Virus record (IMG/VR): IMGVR_UViG_3300046837_000062
Span: 1 to 41,382 of that record
DNA length: 41,382 nucleotides
Direction: 5' to 3' (one strand)
Origin: a virus
In this document: positions 746-41,382 of the stretch, in pieces
Layout: the number at the start of each line of letters is the position of its first letter
Position numbering within the stretch: the first letter of the stretch is position 1
Position numbers and translations under genes: made by a program
The notes under the pieces: generated by a model
The model's input: the letters and a program-made list of their open reading frames with translations, nothing else
Database searches by the model: none
Told to the model about the DNA's origin: nothing

Positions 746-1375
746 ATGTCAGGCAGTCCACAGGCTGGCGGATCGTTTCTGCCCTCGTCCGATTACGACC
801 TCACCGGACAGATTCGGCTCGTGCCACCGCAGGCGGTCAACGCCCCAGTGATTGCGACGTTGAAATCGAACGTCAGCACCGCCGACGTGACGACCGGCTA
901 CGCCACCGACACCTATCTGGCCGGCTCGAGCATCGCGGCGCCGGCGATGGGCTTCACGGCCGGGATGCGCTACGTCTGCACGTTTGACATGGTGAAAACA
1001 GCGGCCGGCACGGCGGCGGCCACGGTCATCGTGCGCATCGGCACGGCGGGTGCCGTCGGCGACACCGCCATCCTGACGTTCACCTGGGGCGCTGGCACGG
1101 CGGCGGTCGACACCGGCACGTTCACGGTCACGTGTCACTTCCGCACGGTCGGGAGTGGCACGGTGGCGGTCGTGGCGGGCACCTGCGTCTGCACCCATGC
1201 GCTGGCGGCGACGGGGCTGGTGGCGACGGGCGCATCCGGCAATGGCCAGCTGCAAGTGACCTCGAGCGGCTTCGATTCGACGCCGGCCGGTTCCTTCATC
1301 GGCGTGTCGTTCAACGGCGGAACGTCCTTCAGCGGCACGAACAAGCTGGTGCAGGCCGAACTGCGGAGTTTCTGA
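746..1375 (+). CDS. Virion protein, domain B paralogue
   Basis: This 209-residue protein starts with ATG two bases after the upstream stop. After a short unique N-terminus (about 50 residues) it repeats the ~155-residue C-terminal domain of the preceding gene: DTYLAGSS, GMRYVCTFDMVKTAAGTA, DTGTF, HALAATGL.ATGASG and GVSFNGG.SFSGTN. The composition (Gly, Ala, Thr, Val) and alternating pattern suggest an all-beta virion domain. The pair probably arose by duplication of the B domain. Location just after coat and decoration-type genes suggests a head or head-tail surface protein. No enzymatic motif was seen. Confidence 0.8.
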   Translation: MSGSPQAGGSFLPSSDYDLTGQIRLVPPQAVNAPVIATLKSNVSTADVTTGYATDTYLAGSSIAAPAMGFTAGMRYVCTFDMVKTAAGTAAATVIVRIGTAGAVGDTAILTFTWGAGTAAVDTGTFTVTCHFRTVGSGTVAVVAGTCVCTHALAATGLVATGASGNGQLQVTSSGFDSTPAGSFIGVSFNGGTSFSGTNKLVQAELRSF

Positions 1376-1902
1376 TGAATCTGTCTCCTGATCTCCTCGC
1401 GCAAATCCAAGCGGCGATTGCCAGTGGGCAGTTGCAGGTGCCGCAGACCGGTGCCACGAACAACGCCGGCCGCTCGCCCTTCCGGCCACGGCAACTGCAT
1501 GACCTGACGCTGCTGCCCACTAAAGACGATCCGCGGCCGACGTTCAACTGGAGCGCCGACCCTCCGCGCGATGATGGCGGCGAATCGCGGCGCACGTTTC
1601 CCTATCCGCGGCTGCTCTGGACGGCCGACGGCACGGAAATCACCGTCCACAGCGAAGCGGAGCACCGCGGGATGGTGGCGCAGGGCTATCTCGAGCAGGC
1701 GCCAGGCGACGTGGTGATCGACCAGGCCGAACAGCTGCGGCAGATGCTCGAGGCGCTCTCGCCGGCCGACCGTGCGCTGGTAGTCGACGGGCAGCGACAG
1801 GCCCGTATCAAGGCGGCGCTCTCCGCGCTCGAGGAGCTGCCCCGCGGCGAAGCCGACACCATGCTGGAATCACTGGCGGCGAAGGCGAAGCGGAGCGCCT
1901 AA
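1375..1902 (+). CDS. Head-proximal conserved phage protein, unknown function
   Basis: The ATG at 1375 overlaps the previous stop (TGATG) and gives 175 residues. The N-terminus is helical and polar (NLSPDLLAQIQAAIASGQ). A central section has a short PRLLW.ADG..ITV motif followed by GYLE, as in small proteins often encoded just after phage coat genes. The C-terminus is a charged helix ending in KAKRSA. No catalytic motif or membrane segment is visible. Its place in the head gene cluster suggests a structural or assembly role, but the function is unknown. Confidence 0.7.
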   Translation: MNLSPDLLAQIQAAIASGQLQVPQTGATNNAGRSPFRPRQLHDLTLLPTKDDPRPTFNWSADPPRDDGGESRRTFPYPRLLWTADGTEITVHSEAEHRGMVAQGYLEQAPGDVVIDQAEQLRQMLEALSPADRALVVDGQRQARIKAALSALEELPRGEADTMLESLAAKAKRSA

Positions 1903-1903
1903 C

Positions 1904-3427
1904 GTGAAGATCCACGGCCATCCGCAGAAGACGGATTACGCCTCGCCGGCCGAATGGCCGACCGTCTCATTCCAAGGGCATTGGGTGGCGCCGGGGCTCA
2001 CGCCAATGCCGATGGCGGGCTTGCCGGGAATCTGCCACACCCACATCGACATCAAGTTTCCCATCTATGCGGAACTGAACGCGCCGGTCGTCTGCACGTT
2101 CACGGTGAAACTGTTTCATACACAGGGACGATTCGGCGGGTTCTACACCTCGTTGATTCGGGACATCGTGTGGGACGAGACGGGCAGCGCGACGGTGCCG
2201 CCGTTTGTCGGCGATCCGATGGGGCTGGTCGTGAAGACAGGTCGGTTCACGGTCGATCTGGCGATGCCGACGTATTACCCGAACGTGCTGCATGGATGGG
2301 CATCGCCAGTGCTGACCGGCGGCACCTCGTATGACAACGGGGATTCCACGCTGCTCGCGGCGCAGCTTCCCTTCTTCTCTGTGCTCGATCCCGCTGTGCC
2401 GGAACCGTCGATGGCGAACGGCGGCGGGCCGGTGCTGCGGTCGATGGTGGAAGTGGCGAATACGACGGTCTTCGCGTCGAATACGGTGCCGATCAGTTAC
2501 GGAGAGACGCTCGCGGAATACAGCAACGAAGTGGTCGAGTTCATTCCGCTGGCGCCAATTACTGCGCCGTGGGTGCTCTCGGGCGGCACGGACGGCTACG
2601 GATCGGTCGACCTGCCTCCCGGCATGTTGGAAGTGCGGCTTGATCTCGACTTCCACAACAACGTGCCTGGCACGGTGCTGCATAGTCAGACGGGCATTTC
2701 GCATCAGAACGCGACTGTGGTGTTTGATCCGGCCGTGCTGGCCGCCTCAACGCCTCCGGTCGGGGTAGCGCCAGGCACGCACAAAGTCGCCCTCATTCGC
2801 CGGCAGACGGATGGGCCAGAAGCGGTCTGGGCGCTGGTCGTGATCGATGTGCCGGTCGGGGCGTTCGTGCCGCCCACGCCTGTGGTCGTGCCGAACGTGA
2901 TGGGGCAGACCCAAGCCGCCGCCACAGACATCTTGAGCGCCGCGGGATTCTTGGTGCAGGTGCTGACGGAGAGCAATGCGCTGGTGCCGGCAGGGCTCGT
3001 CAGTGCGCAAGATCCGGTCATGGGTGTGACCGCCAACAGCGGCAGTCTGGTCAGGCTCACCATCTCGGCAGGACCGATGGCGATGCCGGTTGTGGTGCCC
3101 AACGTCATGGGTCTGACGCAGATGGTCGGGTCGAACAGTTTGCTGGCGGTTGGGCTCTCGCCGGTCATCGTGATGGCGAGTGATGCCGCGGCAGCCGGCA
3201 CGATCATCGCGCAGCAGCCGATGATGGGCGTCTCGGTGCCGGTCGGGAGTCCGGTCACGCTGACCGTCTCGAGTGGGCCGGTCGTGACGCCCTCGCAGTG
3301 GGTGGTGGTGACGCCGATCATCAAGAAACTCACCGTGCCTGGCGGGCTGGATCGGTTCTGTCTTTGCGTCGAAGGAACGACTGAGTGCGTCGAGCTCGTC
3401 GTCAAACCTGATCCGGGCAGCGTCTGA
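1904..3427 (+). CDS. Virion-associated protein with two C-terminal PASTA repeats
   Basis: GTG start one base after the upstream stop; 507 residues. Residues 1-~310 form a beta-rich region without a family I recognise. Residues ~327-391 and ~396-461 are two tandem repeats, each opening with VVVPNVMG.TQ, with an internal (A)GL/F..V, then Q.P..G and a final GS.V.LT(V/I)S.GP. This is the PASTA signature, known from penicillin-binding proteins and PknB-type kinases, where it binds peptidoglycan or muropeptides. A ~45-residue tail follows. In a virion gene cluster this suggests a particle protein that contacts cell-wall material during adsorption or entry. PASTA identity is well supported by motif; the role is inferred. 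Confidence 0.8.
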   Translation: MKIHGHPQKTDYASPAEWPTVSFQGHWVAPGLTPMPMAGLPGICHTHIDIKFPIYAELNAPVVCTFTVKLFHTQGRFGGFYTSLIRDIVWDETGSATVPPFVGDPMGLVVKTGRFTVDLAMPTYYPNVLHGWASPVLTGGTSYDNGDSTLLAAQLPFFSVLDPAVPEPSMANGGGPVLRSMVEVANTTVFASNTVPISYGETLAEYSNEVVEFIPLAPITAPWVLSGGTDGYGSVDLPPGMLEVRLDLDFHNNVPGTVLHSQTGISHQNATVVFDPAVLAASTPPVGVAPGTHKVALIRRQTDGPEAVWALVVIDVPVGAFVPPTPVVVPNVMGQTQAAATDILSAAGFLVQVLTESNALVPAGLVSAQDPVMGVTANSGSLVRLTISAGPMAMPVVVPNVMGLTQMVGSNSLLAVGLSPVIVMASDAAAAGTIIAQQPMMGVSVPVGSPVTLTVSSGPVVTPSQWVVVTPIIKKLTVPGGLDRFCLCVEGTTECVELVVKPDPGSV

Positions 3428-4110
3428 TGGCGTATGCCCTCATCGCGCAAGTCGGGGCCGTCGGGACGAATCCCACGACCAGCAGTATCAACACGACAGG
3501 AGCGGATCTCCTGCTGGTGTTCTCCGGGGCGATCAATGCCTCGGAAACGATTTCCGACAGCAAAAGTAATAGCTGGACGGATTTGACCGTGGCGGGATCG
3601 ACGCTGACCGGCCGCATTTCGTATTCCCGCGGCGGCACCGTCGGGAGTGGGCATACGTTCACGGCCACCAGTGGCGTGAATGGCGGGCTGATCGTGATGG
3701 CGTTTAGTGGCAGTGTCGCCAGTCCTGTGGCGGCTGGCACGGATACGGTCGGCAATACCGCGTCAGGCACCTCGCAAGGGTCCGGATCGATCACGCCCCC
3801 GGAAACGGACTGTCTCGTCGTCAGCGGGATGACCTACAACGTGGCACCCAACGGGGTGGGGGTGCCGAGTGGGTTTACGGTGCCGAGTGGGGCGAGTATT
3901 GACGCCGTGAACGCCGTCTCGTTCGGCTATTACTTCGCCTACGAGATTCAGACCGCGATTGTCACGCGGTCCCCGACGTGGACACTCGACACCTCGGCCT
4001 CGTTTATGAGTGTCGCGTCGGTGATTTTCAAAGACACCGGGACGGGTGGCGGCGGCTCGAATTGGGGGCCGATGCTCGGCCAACAACTGAATCGGATCGT
4101 GCAGGGCTAA
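3427..4110 (+). CDS. Minor virion protein, beta-sandwich-like
   Basis: ATG overlaps the previous stop (TGATG); 227 residues. The sequence is Gly/Ser/Thr/Val rich with alternating hydrophobics, typical of beta-sandwich phage surface proteins. Visible patterns include an N-terminal hydrophobic strand, SNSWT, and FSGSVASP. It ends with a GTGGGGSNWGP linker and a short tail (QQLNRIVQG). No catalytic motif is evident. It lies between the PASTA protein and a conserved minor structural protein, so a tail or surface-fibre component is the best guess. Confidence 0.65.
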   Translation: MAYALIAQVGAVGTNPTTSSINTTGADLLLVFSGAINASETISDSKSNSWTDLTVAGSTLTGRISYSRGGTVGSGHTFTATSGVNGGLIVMAFSGSVASPVAAGTDTVGNTASGTSQGSGSITPPETDCLVVSGMTYNVAPNGVGVPSGFTVPSGASIDAVNAVSFGYYFAYEIQTAIVTRSPTWTLDTSASFMSVASVIFKDTGTGGGGSNWGPMLGQQLNRIVQG

Positions 4111-4113
4111 TGT

Positions 4114-4776
4114 ATGTCTTATTTGGGCGATTTTCGTCTCGGCGACACGCTGGATTTCAAGTTCACGACCGTGCAGACGACGGGGGCGCCGTTCACGCTC
4201 GCCGGCGGTCCCGTCGTCTCCGCATATCCTGGTAACAGCCTCACGGAATTAACCGCTGGCATTACGTTGACTCAGGATTTTGATGGCCGCACCGGTCTGA
4301 ACAACGTGCGCGTCGTCGCGTCCGGTGGCAACGGTTACGCCACAGCGACGAACTACGAGTTGGTGATCACGACTGGCACCGTGAACAGTGTCTCGGTCGT
4401 AGGCTACGTGGTCGGCACGTTCTCCATTGAGAACCGCTCGGCCCTGATGCCGACGACCAGCGGGCGCACGTTGGTGGTCGATGCATCGGGCCTTGCAGAT
4501 GCGAATACGGTCAAGGTTGGCCCCACCGGCTCGGGCACGGCCCAGACCGCCTCTAATTTGTCGGCGCTCCTCACGACCGCGCTGACGGAGAGCTACAACA
4601 CCGACGGCTCGACGGGCACGGCGGCGCAGTTGCTCTACCTGATCGTCTCGCGTCTGATGGAGTTTGACATTTCAGGCACATCGATCACGATGCGTAAACT
4701 GGATGGCACCACGCAATCAGCGATTTTGACGTTGAACGACGCGACGAATCCGACGACGTGTCATCGGACGACGTAA
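4114..4776 (+). CDS. Conserved minor structural protein (MSYLGDF type)
   Basis: 220 residues. The N-terminus MSYLGDFRLGDTLDFKFTTV and the following ~100 residues resemble the beta-domain found at the start of many phage minor structural proteins (baseplate/fibre-attached, BppU-like). The C-terminus has the family's usual ending: LLYLIVSRLMEF, a KLDGTT segment, and LNDATNPTTCHRTT. A short hinge with SGRTLVVDASGLAD separates the two. Neighbours on both sides are structural. Exact location in the particle is not known; a tail appendage or adaptor is likely. Confidence 0.7.
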   Translation: MSYLGDFRLGDTLDFKFTTVQTTGAPFTLAGGPVVSAYPGNSLTELTAGITLTQDFDGRTGLNNVRVVASGGNGYATATNYELVITTGTVNSVSVVGYVVGTFSIENRSALMPTTSGRTLVVDASGLADANTVKVGPTGSGTAQTASNLSALLTTALTESYNTDGSTGTAAQLLYLIVSRLMEFDISGTSITMRKLDGTTQSAILTLNDATNPTTCHRTT

Positions 4777-5007
4777 GTGGCTGATACCGGCAAAATTGCC
4801 GTCGAAGGCTTCAGTGCTGGCGCGATCAAATATGTCGTGCTGCAGGGGTTTGTGCCGAATCCATCAGGCACCGTCAATGCCTGTCTGGTCACGTTGGGGT
4901 TCGGCGCGGCGAACAGTCACAAAGTGGCGTTACTTGGATTTGTCGGCGTGACGGCCCCGACCACGACGGGCGCCTATCCGGTCTTTGGTGGCACGGTGAT
5001 CGGATGA
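4777..5007 (+). CDS. Small virion-cluster protein
   Basis: GTG start directly after the upstream TAA; 76 residues. It is hydrophobic and Gly/Ala/Val rich (MADTGKIAVEGF, then KVALLGFVGV) with two Cys-free beta-like halves. It overlaps the next gene by four bases (ATGA), so translation of the two is probably coupled. It has no motif I can assign; context implies a small structural component of the particle. Confidence 0.6.
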   Translation: MADTGKIAVEGFSAGAIKYVVLQGFVPNPSGTVNACLVTLGFGAANSHKVALLGFVGVTAPTTTGAYPVFGGTVIG

Positions 5008-5657
5008 GTCAAAAGGATGTCTGCGATGGCAATAGCCTGACGCGCGGCGCGGGGGCGACAGCGGGCCATGACTATCCGACCATCCTCGGGACGCTTCGCG
5101 CGGGTGAAACGATTGTCAATCTCGGTGTGGACGGGGCGACAACCACAGATCGATCAGCCGCGTATCCGGCGGGTGCCGCCACCATCTTCACGGCTGGCGC
5201 GTTCTATGTGCCATGGGAAGTAATCAATGCGGTGTATTTCAATGTCGATGCGCCGACGGCCTATAGTGACTACGCGGCGTGGTGCAATTTGGCGCGTGCG
5301 ACGGGTTACAAAGTGATTGCGGTGACCGGTTCGCCGGCGCGTGGGGATTTTCCTGGCACCTCGACGTTGCCAGCCCCGCAGGAAACGAATTGGAATAGTC
5401 GGATCGCGACGGTCAATGCGAACATCCGCGCGAATTGGCGCCTCTTCTCACATGGCCTTTACGATCTGGCGCTGGACACACGCTTTCAGAACTATAACGA
5501 TACGACCTATTTCCAAACAGACAAGGTGCATTACACGGATCTCGGCTATGCCATCGTCGCCGCTGGCGTCAGTGCCGCCATCACGACCGTGCTGACAGCG
5601 ACGACAGGACATTTCGGCAGCGTGATGGCGGGTATCGCACGGGGGCCGCGTCGATGA
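5004..5657 (+). CDS. SGNH/GDSL-hydrolase-like protein
   Basis: 217 residues; ATG overlaps the previous stop (ATGA). Block I of the SGNH fold is recognisable as CDGNSLTRG with the predicted nucleophile Ser11. Block V is DKVHYTDLGY with Asp173 and His176, matching the family's DxxH catalytic pair. A VNLGVDGATT segment near residue 37 corresponds to the block II region; a clean block III GxND is not evident. Family members are esterases or lipases, and in phages such domains deacetylate or trim surface polysaccharides. Sitting among tail genes, it may be a virion-borne esterase acting on the host envelope. Fold call is good; activity and substrate are inferred. Confidence 0.75.
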   Translation: MSQKDVCDGNSLTRGAGATAGHDYPTILGTLRAGETIVNLGVDGATTTDRSAAYPAGAATIFTAGAFYVPWEVINAVYFNVDAPTAYSDYAAWCNLARATGYKVIAVTGSPARGDFPGTSTLPAPQETNWNSRIATVNANIRANWRLFSHGLYDLALDTRFQNYNDTTYFQTDKVHYTDLGYAIVAAGVSAAITTVLTATTGHFGSVMAGIARGPRR

Positions 5658-6319
5658 GTTTTAATTACGTCGCGCTGGATAGCTCACCGAAGACCTTTGA
5701 TGCGGTCTTCCATGATCCGGATACCGCGAACAAACATAACGCCGATAGCACGCCCGTCTTCAACGTCTTCGAAGATGCGAATGACACGCCGATTCTGCTA
5801 AATCAGTCCATGACGCAGCGCGGCGGCTTCGTGGGCTGTTATCGCGGCACGTTTGCGCCCTCGACGGCGAACGGTTTTGAAGTGGGGAAGAGCTACAACG
5901 TGCATGTCTACGGCACCGTGACCGGCACGGTCAGTGGCAACGCCATCTCGGATGATTGGGTCGCCTCGACCTTCTGTGTGAGCGTGGCGGAAGTGGTGCA
6001 GGGGTCCGTGCCGGCCACCGTGGCAGGGTCGGTCGCGAGTGTCGTGGGTGATGTCGGCGGCAATGTGATTGGGTCCGTGGGCAGCGTCATCACGATCACG
6101 AACATCATTGCGGGCGTGTTCGCCCATGCCTTCAGCGCGGCGTATCGTTCCTTCACGTTTGAACAGATGATCGGCGCGATGGCCGCCTCGCTGCTCGGCA
6201 AGTTGTCCGGCGCGGCGACATCGGCCGTGGTGATTCGGAATCTGCAGGATTCGGGTGATGTGGTGACGGCCACGGTGGATGCCAACGGCAACAGGACCGC
6301 GGTCACGGTGACGCCGTAA
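5654..6319 (+). CDS. Minor structural protein with GNVxGSVGSV-type hinge
   Basis: ATGA overlap with the SGNH gene; 221 residues. The N-terminal ~110 residues form a beta-domain (FDAVFHDPDT, GKSYNVHVYGTVTG). A Val/Gly hinge (DVGGNVIGSVGSV) follows. The C-terminus ends in a conserved phage pattern, LLGKLSGAATSAVVIRNLQDSGD then TVDANGNR.AVTV. This architecture parallels the 4114 gene: an N-terminal recognition-type domain with a shared C-terminal attachment block. It is likely a tail or appendage component. No catalytic residues seen. Confidence 0.7.
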   Translation: MSFNYVALDSSPKTFDAVFHDPDTANKHNADSTPVFNVFEDANDTPILLNQSMTQRGGFVGCYRGTFAPSTANGFEVGKSYNVHVYGTVTGTVSGNAISDDWVASTFCVSVAEVVQGSVPATVAGSVASVVGDVGGNVIGSVGSVITITNIIAGVFAHAFSAAYRSFTFEQMIGAMAASLLGKLSGAATSAVVIRNLQDSGDVVTATVDANGNRTAVTVTP

Positions 6320-6465
6320 TGTTTCCCGGTCATTTCTTTTGCGCGCGCTTTTTCGCCCCTCGGTATTTCCCGAAAGTGGGCGCGGCGCCGCCGCCGTTTC
6401 TGGCACAGTGGCAGAATGCCGCCAATGCCTATCTCGGCCCGTTAGGTCGCACGGTGATGGACTAG
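6319..6465 (+). CDS. Tiny conserved-type peptide (FPGHFF...APRYFPKVG)
   Basis: A 48-residue ORF whose ATG at 6319 overlaps the upstream TAA (TAATG) and whose TAG overlaps the next GTG. The sequence begins MFPGHFFCARFFAPRYFP, an aromatic, Phe/Tyr-rich motif I associate with very small proteins found in many phage tail clusters. A Pro-rich link and a short helix (FLAQWQNAANAYLGPLG) follow. The tight overlap at both ends supports translation. Function unknown. Confidence 0.65.
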   Translation: MFPGHFFCARFFAPRYFPKVGAAPPPFLAQWQNAANAYLGPLGRTVMD

Positions 6466-6752
6466 TGGCGATTCCGGTGAAGAATACGACCGGCTGGGTG
6501 GTGGGCGGCCAGATGATCCATGCCACTGATGGCGCGCCGTTTGTCGGCGCCGTCACGGCCTATGTGAGCAAAGACGGCGCGACCGAAGTGCTGGGCACGG
6601 TCGGCGGGGGCGTCTGCACCTCCGCGGGCAGCAATGGCTTCTACGTGTATTTCCCCTCGCAGGCGGAAACCAACGCGAATCTGGTCGCGGTGACGATGAT
6701 CGGGGTGAACGCCGTGCCGCATACCGTGCAGATTCCGACGGTGGTGCTCTAA
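6465..6752 (+). CDS. Stand-alone NTTGW domain protein
   Basis: GTG at 6465 overlaps the upstream TAG; the product is 95 residues. It opens MAIPVKNTTGWVVGGQM and contains GFYVYFPSQAETN. It is a clear paralogue of the first ~92 residues of the next gene (MAMPVRNTTGWVVGAQM, GFYVYHPTQAETN). The domain is probably a small beta-sandwich of the kind appended to phage tail proteins. Its stop overlaps the next ATG by one base (TAATG). It likely binds the same site in the particle as the paralogous domain, or is a duplicate. Confidence 0.7.
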   Translation: MAIPVKNTTGWVVGGQMIHATDGAPFVGAVTAYVSKDGATEVLGTVGGGVCTSAGSNGFYVYFPSQAETNANLVAVTMIGVNAVPHTVQIPTVVL

Positions 6753-7810
6753 TGGCGATGCCCGTCAGGAATACCACTGGCTGGGTCGTCGGCGCGCAGA
6801 TGGTCAACGTGACCGACGGCGCGGCCTATGTGGGCACCGTCACCTGCCATCTGACGAAGGATGGCGTGCTGCCGTCGGTGCTCGGCACGTTCAATAGCGG
6901 CCTCTGCACGGCGCTCGGCAACGGCTTCTACGTCTACCATCCGACGCAGGCCGAAACCAATTACGGCGTCATCGATTTCACGTTCAGCGGCACCGGGGCG
7001 ATTCCGAATACACGCCAAGTGCCGACGATGACCGCCGCGCAAGCCGCCGCGATTCAGGTCGCCAGCGGCGCCAACATCTACACCGTGCGCGCGGTCATCA
7101 CCGATGCGCTGATGGAGATTGGCGTGCTCGAGCCGGGGGAATCGCCGTCCGCGGCACAGGCGAGTATCGGGCTGCGCCGCACGCAGGGCATGATCGACAG
7201 TTGGGCGGCTGACCGCCTGACGCTCTCGCTGCAGTTGCGCACGCCGTTCACCTGGCCGGCGAATACGAGCTCAGTGCAGGTCGGGCGTGGGCAGACCGTC
7301 GACATGGACCGGCCGGTCTGGGTCAACAATCTCACGTTCGTGGTGCCTGGGACCAATCCCGGCGTCGAAGTGCCGATGGGGCTGATGGATGAAGACGCCT
7401 ATGCGTCCTTGACCATCAAGAATCTCACTTCACAGTTGCCGCAGCAGGCGTTCTACCAGACCAACGTGAACGATCCGAACGGCACGCTGTTCATCTGGCC
7501 GACCCCACCCAGCCTCACGCTGGTGCTCTACACGCCACAAGCGGTCAGTGTGCCGGCGAACTTGAACAGCCTCATGCAGGGGCCGCCTGGCTATCAGGAT
7601 GCGTTCCTCTACCAGTTGGCGCTGCGGCTCTGCACGCCCTTCGGGGTGGCGGTGCCGCCTCTGCTGCCGCGGATGGCGGCGAGCGCGTTTGAAAACATGA
7701 AGAAACCGAATGTGGAACCGGGGTCGATGGGCCTCGATCCGGCGCTGGTGCCAAGTTACGGCGCCGGCTATAACGTGCTCACCGACAGCACGACCTTCAG
7801 CGGGAGATAA
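6752..7810 (+). CDS. P22 gp4-like head-tail adaptor with N-terminal NTTGW domain
   Basis: 352 residues. Residues 1-~92 repeat the domain encoded by the preceding gene. From about residue 108 the sequence matches the pattern of P22 gp4-type packaged-DNA-stabilisation factors: a helical VRAVITDALMEIGVLEPGE start, then IGLRRTQGMIDSWAADRL, a central beta-insertion and an ending with PPGYQDAFLYQLALRLCTPFG. P22 gp4 is the first tail accessory factor, sits under the portal and is normally about 166 residues. This protein is twice that size because of the added N-terminal domain and a longer insertion. The gp10-like gene follows closely, as in P22. Confidence 0.75.
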   Translation: MAMPVRNTTGWVVGAQMVNVTDGAAYVGTVTCHLTKDGVLPSVLGTFNSGLCTALGNGFYVYHPTQAETNYGVIDFTFSGTGAIPNTRQVPTMTAAQAAAIQVASGANIYTVRAVITDALMEIGVLEPGESPSAAQASIGLRRTQGMIDSWAADRLTLSLQLRTPFTWPANTSSVQVGRGQTVDMDRPVWVNNLTFVVPGTNPGVEVPMGLMDEDAYASLTIKNLTSQLPQQAFYQTNVNDPNGTLFIWPTPPSLTLVLYTPQAVSVPANLNSLMQGPPGYQDAFLYQLALRLCTPFGVAVPPLLPRMAASAFENMKKPNVEPGSMGLDPALVPSYGAGYNVLTDSTTFSGR

Positions 7811-7812
7811 CG

Positions 7813-8145
7813 ATGGCGCAACCAGTGCTCGTCAATGGCATGTCCGGCGTGCTCGCCACGCCCATCTTTGTCAGTGGGCCGTGCAAGCTCTCGGACTACA
7901 GCATCTACAATGCAGCGGCGGCGGCCTCCTATGTCAGCTTCTACGATACCCAGCTGGCGCCGACCGTCGGCACGACGGTGCCGAAATGGCAGGTGGGCCT
8001 GACCACGCTCGGGAGTGCGCAACTCGCGGACATCGGCCGCGAAGGGCTGCTGTTTCGTGACGGGCTCTGGATTGCGGCGACCACGACGGCGAGTGGCTCG
8101 AGCGCGCCGGCCTCGGCGCTGGCGGTGAGTGTCGGGATCAACTAA
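7813..8145 (+). CDS. Small virion protein between gp4-like and gp10-like genes
   Basis: 110 residues; ATG two bases after the gp4-like stop, and its TAA overlaps the next ATG. Composition is beta-rich (CKLSDYSIYNAAAAASYVSFYD, then GLLFRDGLWIAATTTASG). The pattern matches short phage proteins with a single jelly-roll-like domain encoded near head-tail connector genes. No enzymatic motif. Position in the connector/tail-hub block suggests a structural role. Confidence 0.65.
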   Translation: MAQPVLVNGMSGVLATPIFVSGPCKLSDYSIYNAAAAASYVSFYDTQLAPTVGTTVPKWQVGLTTLGSAQLADIGREGLLFRDGLWIAATTTASGSSAPASALAVSVGIN

Positions 8146-9569
8146 TGCCCTCGTATCCGGGGTTCATTGGTCCGTCCTATCAAAGCCAGTCCTATCTGGC
8201 GGATAGCGAACAGTTGATCAATCGGTTCCCTGAAAAGAATGAATCAGAATCGGCGCCGACGCCGTGGGTGCTGTTGCAGTGTCCCGGGTTTGAGCTCATC
8301 GTCGCGCCCACGGCGAATTTTGGCGCTGGGATGTTTTCGGAAGGGGGCCGCACGTTTTTCGTGACCGGCTTCACGCTCTATGAATTGACCACCACGAATC
8401 TCGCCATTGTGCGTGGCGTCGTGCAGCGTGACGCGAATCCCGTCACGTTTATGAGCAACGGCGATGCCGGGCATCAACTCGGGCTCACCTCTGGGGATCA
8501 GTTCTATGTGATGGACCTGAACACCAACGTGATGACCACGGTGCTGAGCCACGGCGCGACGATGTGCGCGTTCCTCGATGGCTTCGGCTTTATCCTCGAT
8601 GCCAGCATCTCCACGCTGCAAGTGACCGCGTTTGAAGATTTCACCGCGATTGACCCCGGCAACATCCAGCAGCGCACGGCGGGCAGTGACCCGTGGGTGG
8701 CGATGTATGTGGTCAACCGACTGGTCTATCTGCTCGGCGAGCACACCTCGGAAGTCTGGTATGACGCGGGCACATCGCCGTTTCCGCTCGCGCCGATTCA
8801 GGAAGCCTTCATGCAGCAGGGCTGTGCGGCGCCCTTTTCTGGCGCACGGCTCGGCACCGCCCTGGTCTGGCTGAGTCACAACGAACAGGGGCGCGGGCAA
8901 ATCGTCAGCGCCACCGGCTACACACCGGGACGGGTCAGCACCCATGCGGTCGAAGGCAAAATCTCCACCTACGACACCCTGTCTGATGCGGTGGCGTTCA
9001 GTTATCAGGAGAATGGGCACACCTTCTATGTGCTGACCTTTCCGACGCCAGGGCGCACGTGGTGCTATGACCAGGCGACAGGGCTCTTCCATGAGCGTCT
9101 CTATTGGGATACGACTACGGCCGACTGGCTGGCCTATCGACCGATGTTCTATGCCCATCCTGAACGGAGTCTGGTGCAGGACCGGTTGACCGGCGCCATC
9201 TATCGCATTGGCACCGATCTGTTCACGGATGTGGATGGCGCCAAAATTCGTCGGGTGCGACAACCGCCGCGGCTCAGTTTCGACCAGAAGCGCTTTGTCA
9301 CGCACGCCATTCAACTGGTGTCCGACAATGGCTTGGGCGGGCCGGTGGGCGATGATGCCGTGGTGATTCGGCAGACCTCGAAAGATGGCGGCAAGACGTG
9401 GGGCGATGAGCAGTGGGCATCGATGGGCGCGCAGGGCGAATATGCCTATCGGACCCGCTGGACGCAGTGTGGGCAGGCACGTAACCGTGTCGACCGGTTC
9501 ATCGATACGTTTGCGGGACCGTCACGCTGGGTCGATGCGTTGATTGATGTCACGGTGGGGCCGTCCTGA
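8145..9569 (+). CDS. P22 gp10-like packaged-DNA stabilisation (tail hub) protein
   Basis: 474 residues, close to the P22 gp10 length (~472). The N-terminus carries the family's usual opening, with YPGFIGPSYQSQSYLADSEQ and a nearby NRFPE. The middle is a beta-propeller-like series with DGFGFILD, FEDFTAIDPGN and VWYDAGTSPFPL. The C-terminal part has RQTSKDGGKTW and a DRF(I/V)DTFAGPSRWVDALI segment. In P22, gp10 hexamers bind gp4 below the portal and prevent DNA leakage. The neighbouring gp4-like gene supports the same role here. Confidence 0.82.
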   Translation: MPSYPGFIGPSYQSQSYLADSEQLINRFPEKNESESAPTPWVLLQCPGFELIVAPTANFGAGMFSEGGRTFFVTGFTLYELTTTNLAIVRGVVQRDANPVTFMSNGDAGHQLGLTSGDQFYVMDLNTNVMTTVLSHGATMCAFLDGFGFILDASISTLQVTAFEDFTAIDPGNIQQRTAGSDPWVAMYVVNRLVYLLGEHTSEVWYDAGTSPFPLAPIQEAFMQQGCAAPFSGARLGTALVWLSHNEQGRGQIVSATGYTPGRVSTHAVEGKISTYDTLSDAVAFSYQENGHTFYVLTFPTPGRTWCYDQATGLFHERLYWDTTTADWLAYRPMFYAHPERSLVQDRLTGAIYRIGTDLFTDVDGAKIRRVRQPPRLSFDQKRFVTHAIQLVSDNGLGGPVGDDAVVIRQTSKDGGKTWGDEQWASMGAQGEYAYRTRWTQCGQARNRVDRFIDTFAGPSRWVDALIDVTVGPS

Positions 9570-24236: not shown

Positions 24237-24265
24237 TTGTCACCTCGATGGGATGGGCGTATCGT
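24237..24265 (+). promoter_or_regulatory. Promoter of helicase gene
   Basis: TTGTCA (24237-24242), 17-base spacer, TATCGT (24260-24265). Five of six -35 bases match, and the -10 hexamer is the same as in the 22942 promoter. It would give a ~97-base leader before the ATG at 24369, which has a GAGAGGGG Shine-Dalgarno. Confidence 0.5.
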
Positions 24266-24368
24266 ATGCTCGTTCCTGCATCGGCTCACGCTGGCCGGCG
24301 TGCTCGCCACTGTCGTGCTCTCTCACGGCGGTGGGGCCGATGCTCTTTCACCCAGAGAGGGGTGTTTG

Positions 24369-25556
24369 ATGTCCGATTGGTCGTCTGTGCTCGACTGCAC
24401 GCAAGCCGGTCCTCGTTCCACGCTCGCCAACGCCGTCTCTGTTCTCCAACACGATCCGCAATGGGCCGATACCACCTTCTGGTATGACGCCTTCCTCGAC
24501 CGCGTGCTGCTCGCGAATAGCCCCGTGCGTGAATGGCGCGATGATGACGATACCCGCCTGACGGTCTACCTCCAGCAATCGGTGCCGATGGCGACGATGA
24601 GCGAAGCCCACACCGCCTCTGCGGTGCGCTACGTGGCCCGCCAGCGCACGAAGCACTGCGTGCGCGACTGGTTAGCCACCTTGCGCCATGACGGCACGCC
24701 GCGGCTGGAGAACGCCCTGGAGCGCTATTGGGGCGCCACGGCCACCGAGCGGCAGCCTGCGGAGTATTTACAGGCCGTCAGCGCCAACTTCCTGCTCGGC
24801 ATCGTGGCGCGCGTGATGCTCCCCGGCTGCCAACTCGACACGATGGTGATTCTGGAAGGCGCTCAAGGCATCGGCAAATCGCGTTCCCTGCGGGCGCTCG
24901 GCGGTGCCTGGTATATGCTCGCCTCCGAATCCGTCACGCACAAAGATTTCTTCCAATCCCTGCCCGGCAAGCTCATCGTGGAAATCGGCGAAATGGATTC
25001 CTTCACCCGCGCGGAGCGCGAGCGCGTCAAACTGGCCATCAGCACGCCCGTCGACCGCTGGCGCTCGAGCTATGGTCGACGGGCCGAAGACCATCCACGA
25101 CAGTGCGTGTTCGTCGGCACCACCAATCGCGACGACTACGGCAACGATGATACGGGCCTGCGCCGGTTCCTGCCCGTGCTCTGTGGGGCCATTGATGTGC
25201 TGGGCCTGACGCGCGACCGTGACCAGTTGTTCGCCGAAGCCTATCGGCGCGTGCAAGCCGGCGAGCCGTGGTGGCTGACACCTGAGCAGCCCACACTCGC
25301 CGTGCAGCGTGACCGCCAGGCCGATGACGTGTGGACCACGGAGGTGCTCGAGTGGCTCATCGGCAAATCCGACGTGACGAGCGCAGAGGTGCTGAGCGGT
25401 GCGCTGAAAATTCGCACGGGCGATATGACCCGCACGGAGCAACTCCGCGTCGGCAGCATCCTACGTCTCGCCGGCTGGAAACGGCAGACCATTCGCCGTG
25501 CCGGCCTCCCCATCAAGGCGTGGGTGACTCCTGTAACCGATGAAATGGTCGTGTAA
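24369..25556 (+). CDS. VapE/D5-like replication helicase
   Basis: ATG at 24369 gives 395 residues; an upstream in-frame extension has no ribosome-binding support. The ATPase core has Walker A GAQGIGKS (164-171), Walker B KLIVEIGEMD (201-210), sensor-1 VGTTNRDDY (249-257) and an arginine-finger-like TGLRRF (262-267). This order fits virulence-associated E/D5-type helicases. The ~155-residue N-terminus lacks an obvious primase motif, and no polymerase gene is in the genome. It probably opens or unwinds viral DNA and recruits host enzymes. The repeat array that starts in its last codons may be its target. Confidence 0.82.
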   Translation: MSDWSSVLDCTQAGPRSTLANAVSVLQHDPQWADTTFWYDAFLDRVLLANSPVREWRDDDDTRLTVYLQQSVPMATMSEAHTASAVRYVARQRTKHCVRDWLATLRHDGTPRLENALERYWGATATERQPAEYLQAVSANFLLGIVARVMLPGCQLDTMVILEGAQGIGKSRSLRALGGAWYMLASESVTHKDFFQSLPGKLIVEIGEMDSFTRAERERVKLAISTPVDRWRSSYGRRAEDHPRQCVFVGTTNRDDYGNDDTGLRRFLPVLCGAIDVLGLTRDRDQLFAEAYRRVQAGEPWWLTPEQPTLAVQRDRQADDVWTTEVLEWLIGKSDVTSAEVLSGALKIRTGDMTRTEQLRVGSILRLAGWKRQTIRRAGLPIKAWVTPVTDEMVV

Positions 25557-28814: not shown

Positions 28815-31164
28815 AGAATCGCCCAGCGACCTGATTGTCGAAGCGCGTAAGCGCTGGGTCCGCGCGATGGAAGCGGAAGAGCAACAGCGCAAGCGCATCG
28901 TGCTCGCCAAGAAGTTCCGCATCGGCGACCAGTGGCCTGACGCCATCAAACTCGCCCGTCAAGGTGGCAATGCCATCCAAGGGCAAGCCCCGCAACCGCC
29001 GCGGCCCTGCCTCGTGGTCGACCGCCTCTCCCAGCCCGTGCGCCAGGTGTCGAACACCATCAAGAATGCGGCCTTCGGGTTCGATGTGCTGCCGGCCGGC
29101 GGCGGCAGCGATTCCGACACCGCGGACATCTTCAAGGGCTATCTGCGCTGGATGCAGAACAACTCCCGCGGGGAGTCGCCGATTGAGTGGGCGGCGGATG
29201 GCGCGATTGAGAGCGGCATCGGCTGGTTTCGGCTGCGCACGGATTACGTGAACGAGACGTGGGACGGCGCGCTGACCGATGAGGTGATGTGGCAAGCGCT
29301 GTTCCTCGAGCGCATCACGAACAGCCTGACGGTCTACTGCGACCCGGCCGCGGTGAAGCCGACCCGCAGTGATGCACAGTTCATGTTCATCACCGAAGAC
29401 ATTTCCAAGGACGAATTTAAGAGGCTCTTCCCGAAGGCGGATGTGCGTGGGCTGGAGAACTTCATTGCGACCGGCGACCGCGGCAAGATGGGCACGTGGG
29501 CCACGGAAGACATGGTGCGCATTGCGGAGTATTGGCGCATCGTCTATCAGAACCGCACACTGTCCCTGATGCCGGATGGGTCCGTAGTCGAGGGCAAGCA
29601 GAAAGGCGCGGAGCAGACGCGCGTGATGCGGGTGCCGACGGTCAAGTGCGACAAGATCAACGCCATCCAATCCCTCGAGCAATACGAGTGGGTGGGCTCG
29701 CGCATTCCGATCATTCCCATCCTCGGCGAAGAGCTCAACATCGACGGCAAGGTGTGGCTGCGCGGCATCATCGAGGAGGGCATGGACGCGCAGCGGATGG
29801 TGAACTACACCTACAGCGGCGCCGTGGAAATCTTTGCCTTGGCGCCAAAGAATGCGCCGATGGTGGCGGCGCAGAGTGTGGCGAACTACAAGAGCACCTG
29901 GCAGACCCGCAATACGGTCAACCACGCCTATCTGCCCTACGACCCGTTCGGGCCGGACGGGCAGCAGTATCCGCCGCCGGTGCTCGACACGACAGAGCCA
30001 CCGATTCAGGCCGCCGTCGAACTGATGCGCGTCTCGGAAGACGCCATCAAGGCCACGACGTCGACCGGCGATGCCTCGCTGGGCAACACGAACCCGAATG
30101 AGCGCAGCGGCCGTGCCTTGCAGGCGCTGCAGTCGCAATCGGACCTCGCCAACAGCAACTATCCCGACAACGTGCGGCGGGCGCTCATCTATGCCGCGGA
30201 GCTCGCGCTGGAGGTGATTCCGAAGATTACGAAGCCCGGGCAGGTGATTCACATCTTGGGCATGGATGACGAGCCGCAACAGGTGATTGTCGGGCAGCCG
30301 TTCATGCCAGGCGAGAAGGGCCAGCCGCCCACGCCTCGGCCCGACATCGACCCAGAGATTGCGAAGCTGAAGGACACGCTGCCGAAATTCTATGACCTGA
30401 ACAACGGGAAGTATGCGGTGACGGTGAGCGTGGGCAAGGCGACCGCCACGAAGCGCGAAGAGGGCGCTGCCGCGCTCGGGGAACTGATTCCGCATCTGCC
30501 GCCGCCGATGGCCGCCGTGCTGACGCCGGAATACATCGAACAGCTGTCGATGCCGAACGCGCACAAGATGGCCGAGATTGCGCGCAATGCGCTGCCGCCG
30601 GAACTGCGGGCGGCGACGGACCAGAACGGGCAGCAGGGCCAGATCCCGCCGCAGGTGATGGCGCAAGTGCAGCAGATGCAGCAGCAACTGCAGCAGGCGC
30701 AGCAGATCATCCAGACGAAGCAGGTCGAGCAGCAGGGCAGCCTCGAAGAGACGAAGATTAAAGCGCAGTCGGACCAGGCGATTGCGGCGCACAAGGCCTC
30801 GAGCGATGCCGACCTCCAGATGGCGCTGCAGGTGATGAAGGACGCGACCACTATTTCAGTCGCGCATATCAACGCACGCACGAAGGGTGTCGATATGGCG
30901 GCGCACGCGCAGGAAGAAGCGCAAGCGCTCGGGCACGAACAGACGCAGAACGCCTTCGACCGCCAGCACGACGTGAACATGGCGCAGCTGGGGCATCAGC
31001 AGGCGATGCAGCAGGGTGACCAGGGCCACCAGCAGGCGCTCGAGCAGGGCGACCAGTCGGCGCAGAACGCGCAAGAGCAGCAGCAGAGTGACCAGCAGCA
31101 CCAGGCCGAGATGGCGCAGCAGGCGCAGGAAGCGGCCGCGCAGCAGCCAGAGGCGAGCGCCTGA
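28804..31164 (+). CDS. P22-like portal protein with Gln-rich C-terminal tail
   Basis: 786 residues. The start has the portal pattern RKRIVLAKKFRIGDQWPDAI, then PCLVVDRLSQPVRQVSNTIK and FDVLPAGG.SDSDTADIFKG. Later IGWFRLRTDY, PIIPILGEELNIDGK and NPNERSGRALQALQSQSDLAN fit P22-type portals (~725 residues). From about residue 612 the sequence becomes a long Gln-rich, coiled-coil-like tail with GHQQAMQQGDQ and GHQQALEQGDQ copies. P22 also has a helical barrel at this end. Here the tail is low-complexity and may form a longer barrel or bind ejection proteins. Confidence 0.85.
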   Translation: MADRESPSDLIVEARKRWVRAMEAEEQQRKRIVLAKKFRIGDQWPDAIKLARQGGNAIQGQAPQPPRPCLVVDRLSQPVRQVSNTIKNAAFGFDVLPAGGGSDSDTADIFKGYLRWMQNNSRGESPIEWAADGAIESGIGWFRLRTDYVNETWDGALTDEVMWQALFLERITNSLTVYCDPAAVKPTRSDAQFMFITEDISKDEFKRLFPKADVRGLENFIATGDRGKMGTWATEDMVRIAEYWRIVYQNRTLSLMPDGSVVEGKQKGAEQTRVMRVPTVKCDKINAIQSLEQYEWVGSRIPIIPILGEELNIDGKVWLRGIIEEGMDAQRMVNYTYSGAVEIFALAPKNAPMVAAQSVANYKSTWQTRNTVNHAYLPYDPFGPDGQQYPPPVLDTTEPPIQAAVELMRVSEDAIKATTSTGDASLGNTNPNERSGRALQALQSQSDLANSNYPDNVRRALIYAAELALEVIPKITKPGQVIHILGMDDEPQQVIVGQPFMPGEKGQPPTPRPDIDPEIAKLKDTLPKFYDLNNGKYAVTVSVGKATATKREEGAAALGELIPHLPPPMAAVLTPEYIEQLSMPNAHKMAEIARNALPPELRAATDQNGQQGQIPPQVMAQVQQMQQQLQQAQQIIQTKQVEQQGSLEETKIKAQSDQAIAAHKASSDADLQMALQVMKDATTISVAHINARTKGVDMAAHAQEEAQALGHEQTQNAFDRQHDVNMAQLGHQQAMQQGDQGHQQALEQGDQSAQNAQEQQQSDQQHQAEMAQQAQEAAAQQPEASA

Positions 31165-33953
31165 TGCCTGGTCCGCTGCAGAGCCTCGTCAGCGCGCTGG
31201 GGCTGGATGGCTCGCAGACGGCGCCGCTCGAGCCTGACACGCTCGGTGTGCTCTCGCAGCAGTATCCGCGGTTCGCGCAAGCGCTCGAGCAGGCGCAGCG
31301 GAACACCATCCGGCTGAACCTCGAGGGACCGACGGTGACGGGTGGTCCCGAGCCGCCGCAGCTGTCACCGGACCAAATGCAGCAGCAGTTGCCTGGCGCG
31401 CCGCCGGCGCCCTCGTTGTTGGACCGCGCTGGCGCGTTCCTGTCGACGGGTCAGTTACCGGATACGCTCAAGCAGTTGTATCTCCAGCATGGGCCTGAGG
31501 CCTTCGCGCAGGGACTGCGCCATCTGAACAGGGCGGTCTATCAGCACGCGCCGCAGGGACGGCTGACGATGGCGCAGTTGGCGCCGGCGCTGAACGAGAC
31601 ACTGACGGGCGCCGGCACCACGTTGGCCCCGCTGGCGGCGCCGGCGGCCGTCCTGCACCCCCTCGGCGCGCTGATCGGGGGCATCGCCGGCACCGCACTG
31701 GCCGGCGGCGGTGAACACGTCGCGACGTCGCTCGGTGCGGACCCGGACACCGCAAAACTGGTGGGCAACATCGCGGGGTTCCTGCCACCGGAGCACCTCG
31801 CGATGGCGGCGCTGCCGTTTGCGCCGTATGCGCGCAACGCGCTGATGAAAACACTTGAGGAGGCCTCGGCGTCGAAGGTGAAGGCGCTGCTGCAGGAGAG
31901 CCCTGCGCTGGCGCCGATGGTGAAGTGGCTGCACCCGTCAGAAACCGTGGCGCTCGCGAAGATGTCGCCGGCCGCGCAGGCCGAATTCCTGCAGGTGCAT
32001 CAGGCGCTACCCAGCAATGACCTCCTCGGGGCGCTCGGACGCGCCGGTGGCGAGAAGTTGGGCTGGTATGAGCACTCGCGCGCGGCCATCCAACACGTCT
32101 ACGGCGACGATGCGGACCTGTTCGCCGGTGTGCTGGCCGCGACCTCGCCGCAGAACAGCGTCGAGATGAACCTGAAGAACGCGACGAAGATCTACCGCGG
32201 CTGGGTGCAAGCGGGACGTCCGACCGACCGCGAGAGCATCATCAAGATCATGGGCGAGAACGTCCAAGGCACCAAGGGCGACGAGAGCGTGCTGTCGTCA
32301 TGGAAGAACAACACGGTATCGGTGCTGCAGGGCGGTCAGGCGATCAGTGGCCCGAAGGTCGATAGCTTCTGGCGCAACCTGCGCAACCGCGCGGTGGAGA
32401 CGCCGTATGGCACGATGCGGCCGCAGGACGCCGTGACGCTCGATGCGTGGATGTCGAACGTGCTCGGCATCAAGCAGACGTATTTCGCTGGCAAGGGCGC
32501 CAACCTCGAGGCGCGCAATCCCGGCTACGGCCCAGGCTACCTCGCCTCGACCGCGAAGCTGCGTGAGGCGGCCACCGCGAGCGGGATGACGCCGGAACAG
32601 CTGCAGGAAACGATCTGGTCGTGGGGCAAGGCGCTCTACGAGCAATCGGAGAAGACGAAAGTGCCCGCGGTCGACATCGTGAAGAGCGGCACGCTCGACC
32701 ACTCCGCGATTGCCGGCACACCGGACTTCTCGACGCTGTTCCATCAGGGCGACTATCACGACGCGATCATCGGGACGAGCCCGACGCACGCGGCGCAACT
32801 CGCGACGCTGAAGCCCTCGACGTTCCCGACGGTTGAGACGCCGTCGCCGCGCGACCTGAAGTGGCAGCTGCAAGCTGCGGAGACGCTCGACAAACTGCGC
32901 CAGAGTCGCGACATCGCGTCAGACCTCCGCACCGGCGCGAACGTGCCTGGCACGGTGGGTATTTCGATTCCGCAGGAAGGGATGCCTGGCGGCGCCTCGC
33001 GTGTCGCGCCAGAGCTCGCGACGTCGGCGTTCAGCCAGGAGCAGCGTGACCGCTTCGCGCGGCAGCTGCTGAAGCCGAACACGGACGTGCGCGGCGAGAA
33101 CGTGTTACTCAAAGCGATGAGCCTGCCGACCGCGGAAACGACCGTCGGCCTCGGCCAGTGGACGCCGCCGGAAGGCGGCCCGACGCAATACAACACGCTC
33201 GATGCCGCCGGCGCGCGTGTGCGGTTGCGTGGTCGCGAGGTGCATCCGGCCGATGCGAAGCGGATTGTGACCGCGGCGCGGCTACAGGGGCTCTTCGACG
33301 CGCAGGATGCGGTGGCGACGACCGGCGTCGTTTACGATCAGGCGCACAAGGACACGCTGCACGTCTTCACGCAGAACAAAGTGAAGCAGGACGTGTTCGA
33401 GGGGCTCACGAAGCTGCTGCCGAAGGATTACGCGCTGGTGAACAAGGGCGGCGGCACGCCAGGGCATGTGATCGACATCGTGCGGCTCGACGGCGCGCCG
33501 GTCGGCGACACCGAGTCAGAGCTCGTCCGCGGCTACCTGTCGAAATATACGAACGCCGGCGCGCGCGAGATTGCGATCACGCCTGGCACCAACGTCGCCG
33601 GCAGCTATCTCGATTTGCCGTGGCACACGGGCCCGGGCAGCGGCCGCGTGAGTGCGACCGCGCTCGAGCACTACGACCAGCTGCCGAAATCGGTGCAGGC
33701 CGGACTCGACAGTCCCGCTGTGAAACGCCTGGCCGCGGCCAAACTCAAGGTTTGGGAGACGGAGGGCGCGAAGCGGGGTCTGACGGTGCCGGCGGACTAC
33801 CGTCAGATGCTGCAGATTGTGGCCGACGGAGGAATTTCTGCGCTGCATCGTGTAGTGGCCAGCGCCGAGCAGCTCGTGCCTGTGCTGCTGATGCTTGGCC
33901 TGGCGCGATCCGCGTCAGAAACCCCGCAAACACGGGGAGATAGTTCTTCATAA
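31164..33953 (+). CDS. 929-residue virion-associated protein with WYEHS..ATSPQ domain
   Basis: ATG overlaps the portal stop (TGATG). Residues ~150-200 are hydrophobic (LAPLAAPAAVLHPLGALIGG). Residues ~285-500 carry a conserved block: GWYEHSRAAIQHVYGDDADL, VLAATSPQNSV, KIMGENVQGTKGDESVLSSW, DAWMSNVLG and WSWGKALYE. I associate this block with large internal phage proteins of uncertain function. The C-terminus has a beta-rich module and a hydrophobic end. Position between portal and the membrane cluster fits an internal or ejected protein; an enzyme cannot be excluded. Confidence 0.65.
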   Translation: MPGPLQSLVSALGLDGSQTAPLEPDTLGVLSQQYPRFAQALEQAQRNTIRLNLEGPTVTGGPEPPQLSPDQMQQQLPGAPPAPSLLDRAGAFLSTGQLPDTLKQLYLQHGPEAFAQGLRHLNRAVYQHAPQGRLTMAQLAPALNETLTGAGTTLAPLAAPAAVLHPLGALIGGIAGTALAGGGEHVATSLGADPDTAKLVGNIAGFLPPEHLAMAALPFAPYARNALMKTLEEASASKVKALLQESPALAPMVKWLHPSETVALAKMSPAAQAEFLQVHQALPSNDLLGALGRAGGEKLGWYEHSRAAIQHVYGDDADLFAGVLAATSPQNSVEMNLKNATKIYRGWVQAGRPTDRESIIKIMGENVQGTKGDESVLSSWKNNTVSVLQGGQAISGPKVDSFWRNLRNRAVETPYGTMRPQDAVTLDAWMSNVLGIKQTYFAGKGANLEARNPGYGPGYLASTAKLREAATASGMTPEQLQETIWSWGKALYEQSEKTKVPAVDIVKSGTLDHSAIAGTPDFSTLFHQGDYHDAIIGTSPTHAAQLATLKPSTFPTVETPSPRDLKWQLQAAETLDKLRQSRDIASDLRTGANVPGTVGISIPQEGMPGGASRVAPELATSAFSQEQRDRFARQLLKPNTDVRGENVLLKAMSLPTAETTVGLGQWTPPEGGPTQYNTLDAAGARVRLRGREVHPADAKRIVTAARLQGLFDAQDAVATTGVVYDQAHKDTLHVFTQNKVKQDVFEGLTKLLPKDYALVNKGGGTPGHVIDIVRLDGAPVGDTESELVRGYLSKYTNAGAREIAITPGTNVAGSYLDLPWHTGPGSGRVSATALEHYDQLPKSVQAGLDSPAVKRLAAAKLKVWETEGAKRGLTVPADYRQMLQIVADGGISALHRVVASAEQLVPVLLMLGLARSASETPQTRGDSSS

Positions 33954-39318: not shown

Positions 39319-40563
39319 ATGGCGAATACGTTCATCACCAACGACATCACCACATTCGAAGCCCTCGACGTGCTCGAGAACACCTGCGACACGATGGTGG
39401 GCATCAACAGCGAATACGACGACAGCTTCGAGTTTGGCGGCACGGTCCTCGGCCAGACGCTGAACATCAGAAAGCCACCGCGCTACATCGGTCGTCTCGG
39501 CCAGGCGGCGCAGATCGAAGCCATCACCGAGACGTTCGTGCCGCTCACCCTGTCCTACCAGCGCGGCATCGACACGCAGGTCAGTTCGCAGAACCTCACC
39601 CTCGACATCGACAACTACCGCGACCGCGTGCTGAAGCCGCAGATCGTGCGTCTGGTCAACTTGATCGACCAGGATGTCTGCAACTTGGCGCAGGGGCTCA
39701 ACAACTTCGTTGGCACGCCGGGCGTGACGCCTTCGACGCTGACCACCTACGGGCTCGCAAAGGTGAAACTCGACAACAACGCCTGCCCGCCGGAAGATCG
39801 CTATGCGTGGATGAACCCGATTGCGGACTTCACGCTGATGGACGCGCTGAAGGGGCTGCTGAATCCTGGCAAGGAAATCGGGGCGCAATACGAGAGCGGC
39901 TCGATGACCAAGACCGGTACGCTGGGGATGGACTGGCGCATGGACCAGAACATCTACGTGCAGACGGTCGGCACGCTCGGCGCCGCCACCCCGGTCGTCG
40001 GCACGGCGCCGGCCAACGGTGCGGTGACGATCAGCACCACCGGCTGGAGCACCTCAACGCTGAACGCGGGCGACAAGTTCTCGTTTGTGTCGACCAGCAC
40101 ACCGGTCAACGGCGTCAATCCGCAGAGCTACCAGAGCACCGGCCAGCCGATGCAGTTCGTCGTCACAGCCACCACCACCGACTCGGGCGGCACGCTGGTG
40201 ATTCCCTTCGCGCCGGCCATCTATGGTCCCGGCACGCAGCTGCAGAACGTGACCAACCTGCCGGCCGTCAGCACGGCGCTGTATGTCTACGACACGCCCG
40301 CGGCGAACTTCTCGCTCATCACCGGCAAGGCGTGCCCGTTCAACATCGTGGGCAACAAGAACTTCGGCACGCTCGCGATGGTCGACATGCCGCTGCCGGG
40401 TGGCACGGATCGCGCCTTCCGTGCGGCGTCGAAGAAATCGGGGAAGTCGATCCGCGCCATTCGCGATTACGTCGCCACCACTGACCAGTGGATACAGAGG
40501 TTGGACGTATTGTATGGCACGGCCGTGCTGCGTCAGGAGCTCGCCTGCGTCGTCGGTGGGTAG
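39319..40563 (+). CDS. Major capsid (coat) protein, P22 type
   Basis: 414 residues. N-arm ANTFITNDITTFEALDVLEN; then FGGTVLGQTLNIRKPPRYIG and TFVPLTLSYQRGIDTQVSSQ match P22-family coats (~430 residues). The middle (~residues 210-330) contains an insertion-domain-like beta region with TLNAGDKFSFVS, VNGVNPQSYQSTGQPMQFVV and PAIYGPGTQLQNV, as in P22 coat. The fold is HK97-like. The portal and scaffold genes are close by, completing the head module. Confidence 0.9.
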   Translation: MANTFITNDITTFEALDVLENTCDTMVGINSEYDDSFEFGGTVLGQTLNIRKPPRYIGRLGQAAQIEAITETFVPLTLSYQRGIDTQVSSQNLTLDIDNYRDRVLKPQIVRLVNLIDQDVCNLAQGLNNFVGTPGVTPSTLTTYGLAKVKLDNNACPPEDRYAWMNPIADFTLMDALKGLLNPGKEIGAQYESGSMTKTGTLGMDWRMDQNIYVQTVGTLGAATPVVGTAPANGAVTISTTGWSTSTLNAGDKFSFVSTSTPVNGVNPQSYQSTGQPMQFVVTATTTDSGGTLVIPFAPAIYGPGTQLQNVTNLPAVSTALYVYDTPAANFSLITGKACPFNIVGNKNFGTLAMVDMPLPGGTDRAFRAASKKSGKSIRAIRDYVATTDQWIQRLDVLYGTAVLRQELACVVGG

Positions 40564-41210: not shown

Positions 41211-41382
41211 ATGTCGCTCACTTCAACGACGCTCTCGTTGACAAAAGCGCGACATGACCGCTACGTCAAGCTGACCTCAGTGACGGGCATCGCGAACAAG
41301 ATGCTCGTCTACTGCGAAGGCGAATACATGCGCATCACCGACACCTCGCAGACCGGGGCATCGGTGGTGGGCGTGGTGCCTG
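41211..41382 (+). CDS. 5' end of the A'+B head/decoration gene (continues at 1)
   Basis: ATG at 41211 directly follows the upstream TAA. The first 15 codons (MSLTSTTLSLTKARH) are found only here; from 41256 the sequence repeats the window start in the same frame. The full protein would be 262 residues when joined to base 744. Domain A is shared with the preceding gene. Confidence 0.85.
   Translation, partial: MSLTSTTLSLTKARHDRYVKLTSVTGIANKMLVYCEGEYMRITDTSQTGASVVGVVP
41256..41382. repeat. Terminal direct repeat, right copy
   Basis: Exact copy of 1-127, in frame with the 41211 ORF. Joining the copies yields an uninterrupted gene, which supports circular closure of a 41,255-base genome. Confidence 0.95.

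Follow-up and report, generated by a model that had tools for sequence, protein, structure and literature searches.

A tandem of PASTA repeats encoded in a variable slot between the coat and head–tail adaptor genes of a P22-like phage

PASTA domains are best known from bacterial cell-wall sensors, and to our knowledge they are normally discussed only as the extracytoplasmic sensors of bacterial kinases and penicillin-binding proteins (PBPs). What, then, do two such repeats do in a late gene of a phage? The question arose from the first-pass annotation of IMG/VR virus record IMGVR_UViG_3300046837_000062, which located a PASTA pair in a virion protein and proposed that the particle uses it to bind cell wall or lipid II-like material at entry. 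The entire record of 41,382 nucleotides (the window) was analyzed here. The gene in question occupies positions 1904..3427 on the + strand, with a GTG start and a product of 507 residues.

Both repeats were found where they had been placed. In a search with the Pfam profile PF03793 (curated cut-off 23.2 bits), PASTA repeat 1 (2882..3076, +, residues 327–391) scored 42.1 bits (E 3.3e-12, matched over 2882–3067) and PASTA repeat 2 (3089..3280, +, residues 396–459) scored 32.3 bits (E 3.9e-9, matched over 3089–3274), while the whole 507-residue protein gave 62.4 bits (E 3.8e-17). The two repeats contain no stop codons and are 48% identical to each other at the protein level. When repeat 2 was shuffled, none of 2000 shuffles matched the real alignment score. 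AlphaFold2, supplied with a 40-row viral PASTA alignment, predicted a PASTA tandem of two β-α-β-β-β units with a pLDDT of 95.5. The top PDB matches of this model in Foldseek were the PASTA arrays of Mtb PknB and S. aureus PrkC (E about 1e-9), and the PASTA structures of PBP1 and PBP2x were also matched; for a single PASTA domain, 3ouv, the rmsd was 1.1 Å. Two of the checks that the first-pass annotation had called for, a PF03793 search and a structure prediction, thus excluded both a score under the threshold and a fold other than PASTA. The PASTA tandem in the 1904–3427 protein is genuine, and a chance repeat was ruled out by the profile scores together with the fold.

No other Pfam family was found in the protein, so that it has neither a kinase nor a transpeptidase domain. 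The NF033483 model (Stk1/PknB PASTA kinase) reached 63.3 bits against a cut-off of 450, with the match confined to the PASTA part. A fragment of a kinase or PBP was ruled out by the absence of such domains. The phage protein resembles the PASTA regions of Mtb PknB, S. aureus PrkC, PBP2x and PBP1 in its profile scores above cut-off, its fold and its tandem arrangement, but differs from these proteins in lacking a kinase, a transpeptidase and a membrane anchor, and in not keeping the published PknB ligand residues (see below).

The first and last 127 bases of the window are identical (1–127 and 41256–41382 of the 41,382-base record), indicating that this genome is complete and circularly closed, with a length of 41,255 bp. 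One gene crosses the sequence junction (41211 to 744). Host contamination was ruled out by the completeness of the phage genome with its terminal repeat. PHROG profiles identified TerL, a portal (phrog_156), a scaffold (phrog_8865), a P22-type coat protein (phrog_283), Ad3 and Hc3, a set that defines the phage as a P22-like podovirus; the earlier description as P22-like was borne out by the portal, scaffold, coat and Hc3 genes, all of which are present. The coat protein (39319..40563, +; phrog_283, E 4.7e-45) had matches covering at least 80% in 37 phage records, and the best matches among named phages were at 30–39%. A host search found no coat relative in the genome collection and no tRNA. 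Elsewhere in the genome, the interval between portal and scaffold holds a 929-residue gene product with a DUF7178 domain (31164–33953; 29.3 bits, cut-off 27), for which no homolog was found in the fetched stretches of coat relatives, and a protein with a VapE-like domain (24237–25556; PF05272, 219 bits) is probably a replication protein.

Three proteins follow the coat protein in a row, at 40623–41210, 41211–744 (across the junction) and 746–1375. They have features in common pairwise (LTSTTLS..K.R.D together with VVGVVPG.NGT, or CKFDMVKTAAGTA-type stretches), are conserved in relatives, and are candidate capsid decoration or fibre proteins. A small conserved protein (1375..1902, +) comes next and forms the left border of what is a variable slot in the relatives. 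The slot opens with the PASTA gene, followed by genes for proteins of 227 residues (3427..4110, +) and 220 residues (4114..4776, +), an ORF at 4777–5007, and a GDSL-type esterase/lipase (5004..5657, +; PF13472, 33.7 bits, cut-off 32.9) that is a possible deacetylase of host surface glycans. Two more small proteins lie between the esterase and the head–tail adaptor (Ad3-like, gp4-type; 6752..7810, +; phrog_637/phrog_12985), which forms the right border, and the head closure protein Hc3 (P22 gp10-type) is encoded at 8145..9569 (+; phrog_578, E 1.1e-76). The PASTA gene is part of a tight same-strand late operon, with junctions at 1902/1904 and 3427/3427. Its location between the coat and decoration genes and the adaptor gene agrees with the earlier assignment to the structural block of the phage.

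The coat search returned 80 loci at 61–99% identity, and the Ad3 protein was present in 43 relatives. In loci with both borders, the distance from the small conserved protein to Ad3 ranged between about 1 kb and 9 kb. No PASTA was found in the fetched stretches of the 80 coat relatives. The contents of the slot were read in six loci, and the relatives fill it with glycan-active or adhesive proteins: Beta_helix and TIG proteins in L183 (15187–19027), a GH30 protein in L201 (9397–10638), Apiosidase and Collagen_bind_2 in L257 (14708–16126), and a Sortilin/BNR protein in L186 (6984–8045). L183 is the nearest relative with a complete slot (coat 89%, homolog of the 746–1375 protein 91%), and its slot set differs from that of the window. 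Because the contents differ among relatives, this region is a slot in which genes for accessory surface proteins are exchanged, and the PASTA gene is one of its contents. Phages that are otherwise very similar carry a rich set of alleles for such proteins here.

The 507-residue protein has a pI of 4.8. As would be expected of a virion protein, it lacks a signal peptide and any transmembrane segment; a lipobox is likewise absent. Its N-terminus (VKIHGHPQKTDY...) is low in hydrophobicity over the first 40 residues and is not that of an Ltp-type lipoprotein. The N-terminal domain of about 321 residues (1904..2866, +) matched no Pfam, PHROG or NCBIfam family and had no meaningful match in the PDB. 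A two-sequence structure prediction of the full protein gave a pLDDT of 29 and did not model this domain usefully. The only full-length ortholog found, and the sole relative of the N-terminal domain, was in record IMGVR_UViG_3300046714_000614 (L003); viral scans, a genome scan and tblastn searches of phages and plasmids returned no other ortholog of this domain. The L003 protein is 45% identical to that of the window throughout the N-terminal domain, PASTA and C-terminus, with 40% identity over residues 1–319, and its ATG opens the same MKIHGHPQKTDY, which supports the GTG start at 1904. The two orthologs, the only ones found, differ in PASTA copy number, with one copy in L003 and two in the window. 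The protein ends in a tail of about 48 residues with three Cys (3281..3424, +), for which the L003 C-terminus showed weak similarity. No part of the PASTA protein was recognized as a docking element for the virion. The L003 phage is unrelated, having no other tested gene in common with the window, and its ortholog adjoins TerL; the L003 block is therefore no proof of a structural role.

Links between the slot genes and PASTA in other phages had not been sought in advance. In L120, a single open frame of 1323 residues (5456–9424, −) joins a domain of the 3427 type to two PASTAs, additional domains and a C-terminus that matches the solved phage connector protein 8ck1 (E 5.8e-8). The domain encoded at 3427..4110 is located N-terminal to PASTA in both L120 and L103 (tblastn E 2e-12; profile search E 9e-63 for L120 and 2e-28 for L103). 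A homolog of the 4114..4776 product (47% identity over 116 residues) is encoded directly upstream of the PASTA ORF of L032, and L022, a distant P22-like phage (coat 28%, Hc3 32%), has a 187-residue ORF with two PASTAs between its adaptor and Hc3 genes. The links in L120, L103, L032 and L022 connect PASTA with structural proteins of short-tailed phages, and also with the genes that are its neighbors in the window. The short PASTA proteins of L022 (7846–8406, −) and L032 (2119–3027, −) both follow a Trp-rich tag (W..GSW..TTW..YSW / AW..GAW..GAW..TAW), which might serve for docking to the virion.

A degenerate DNA pattern for the start of PASTA, scanned over IMG/VR, gave at least 119 stretches. 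PASTA was present at E ≤ 0.001 in 64 of the 81 viral records examined and above cut-off in at least 47 of them (L003 included), counts from a biased sample that do not represent a frequency. With a local profile, 89 distinct PASTA ORFs were collected, and PF03793 matched 69 of the 82 that were scanned. Among the 25 listed of the 26 Pfam families in these 82 ORFs there was no kinase and no PBP/transpeptidase family; the families that accompany PASTA include DUF2612, fn3, LamG, Lipoprotein_Ltp and RHS. The PHROGs matched included a structural protein, a baseplate wedge, a minor tail protein, a virion structural protein and superinfection exclusion, and among the neighboring ORFs were those for TerL, major head protein, baseplate hub, tape measure, endolysin and integrase. 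(Two of the viral PASTA proteins are superinfection exclusion lipoproteins of the Ltp type, and thus not virion proteins.) The use of this domain in a phage particle had been called unusual, which is only half right: PASTA recurs in many viral contigs, and the proteins that carry it include structural, baseplate and minor-tail ones.

Uncultured phage proteins already carry the name “PASTA_pknB domain containing protein” in UniProt/BFVD, for example A0A6J5NDH4. Proteins of this type are likewise phage PASTA proteins without a kinase (Foldseek E 1.7e-9 to the window tandem), but neither the N-terminal domain of the window protein nor a P22-like slot context is known for them. The “Phages” collection gave three weak PASTA matches (best E 0.3), and no paper on PASTA in phage virions was found among the open papers searched. 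More than 20 viral proteins have in common a degenerate, apparently truncated PASTA (VPNVLG.TTALALD.L.DAGYEAANITTA.AATNAA) after a FTVTNAANAGLITGQ domain or a shorter leader, as in L094 (10160–11140), L040 (2135–2890) and L059 (21–1070). The family adjoining the truncated PASTA may be E1_FCCH (PF16190), for which 7 of the 82 pooled PASTA ORFs had a match.

We lean towards the view that the 1904–3427 product is an accessory surface protein of the particle, encoded as an exchangeable cassette, in which the N-terminal domain does the specific job and PASTA serves for spacing or adhesion. From the position of the gene and from the relatives, we infer that the protein is present in the virion and faces outwards. 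The cassette in the variable slot between the coat and decoration genes and the gp4-type head–tail adaptor gene would encode an accessory virion adhesin, the N-terminal domain of which (about 320 residues) could bind glycans or a receptor, or act as an enzyme. The two PASTAs would form a stiff tandem, exposed at the surface, that sets the distance and orientation of the N-terminal domain; they may in addition bind the cell surface weakly and possibly without specificity. Ig-like, fn3 and TIG repeats have a general role as accessory domains in phage virion proteins, and by analogy PASTA might take the part that Ig-like or fn3 repeats play elsewhere. Like those domains, PASTAs are small, β-rich repeats of variable copy number that are attached to structural proteins, and TIG and fn3 were themselves found in the slot or in viral PASTA proteins. 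However, the PASTA fold is a different one, and for the PASTAs of some bacterial proteins the binding of wall ligands is documented.

Such binding is at the core of the first alternative, that the PASTA pair is a specific wall- or lipid II-binding module at entry, acting for example past the outer membrane or on nascent wall. Some PASTA arrays do bind muropeptides or lipid II (PMC3145798, PMC6428115), the closest relative of the tandem in a PDB sequence comparison was the PASTA region of Mtb PknB (E 1.2e-12), and the slot neighbors and alleles are glycan-active. However, muropeptide binding is not intrinsic to PASTA domains: of the three in B. subtilis PrkC, a single one binds, by way of Arg500 (PMC3601408). 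The putative ligand residues of Mtb PknB lie in the linker that follows PASTA3, as the pairs Ser556-Lys557 and Asn559-Gln560 (PMC6428115). The S-K-(G)-N-Q of this PASTA3–4 linker aligned with S-A-(G)-P-M in the window protein (PDB sequence alignment), such that only one of the four ligand residues is kept and the published PknB determinants of DAP-muropeptide binding are absent. Arg occurs once in repeat 1, which contains no Lys, and repeat 2 has no basic residue. The binding to wall or lipid II that had been proposed for this pair is therefore not supported, and we consider a specific module of this kind unlikely, although weak binding or other ligands are conceivable. The broader proposition, that phage particles have repeatedly recruited PASTA for wall recognition and that the bacteria's own sensing module leads virions to nascent peptidoglycan or lipid II (for example, at the division site), is quite improbable.

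We are similarly doubtful that the N-terminal domain is a surface-glycan enzyme and that the PASTA pair targets its substrate, like a carbohydrate-binding module on a glycosidase. The slot alleles of the relatives include GH30, apiosidase-like and BNR-repeat proteins, the GDSL esterase resides in the same slot, and the two orthologs agree in numerous residues of His, Asp and Glu and in an unchanged YDNGD, all of which would suit an enzyme. However, the N-terminal domain matches no enzyme family, and a GH-like gene upstream of the L003 ortholog, recognized by hand reading, was confirmed by neither Pfam nor the PDB and was set aside. Very unlikely is a non-virion late protein, serving for example in superinfection exclusion at the host surface or in release at lysis: two viral PASTA proteins do belong to the Ltp-type exclusion families, and the L003 gene adjoins TerL outside any evident tail block, but the window protein has none of the secretion or membrane signals searched for, and its gene shares a late operon with the coat and adaptor genes, between which it lies.

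This case and the survey indicate that phage structural proteins with no kinase or PBP make use of PASTA recurrently. If any phage PASTAs bind wall material, phages would be a source of ready-made wall probes. If none of them bind, PASTA would also be a plain structural repeat, and a PASTA annotation alone would not signify peptidoglycan binding.
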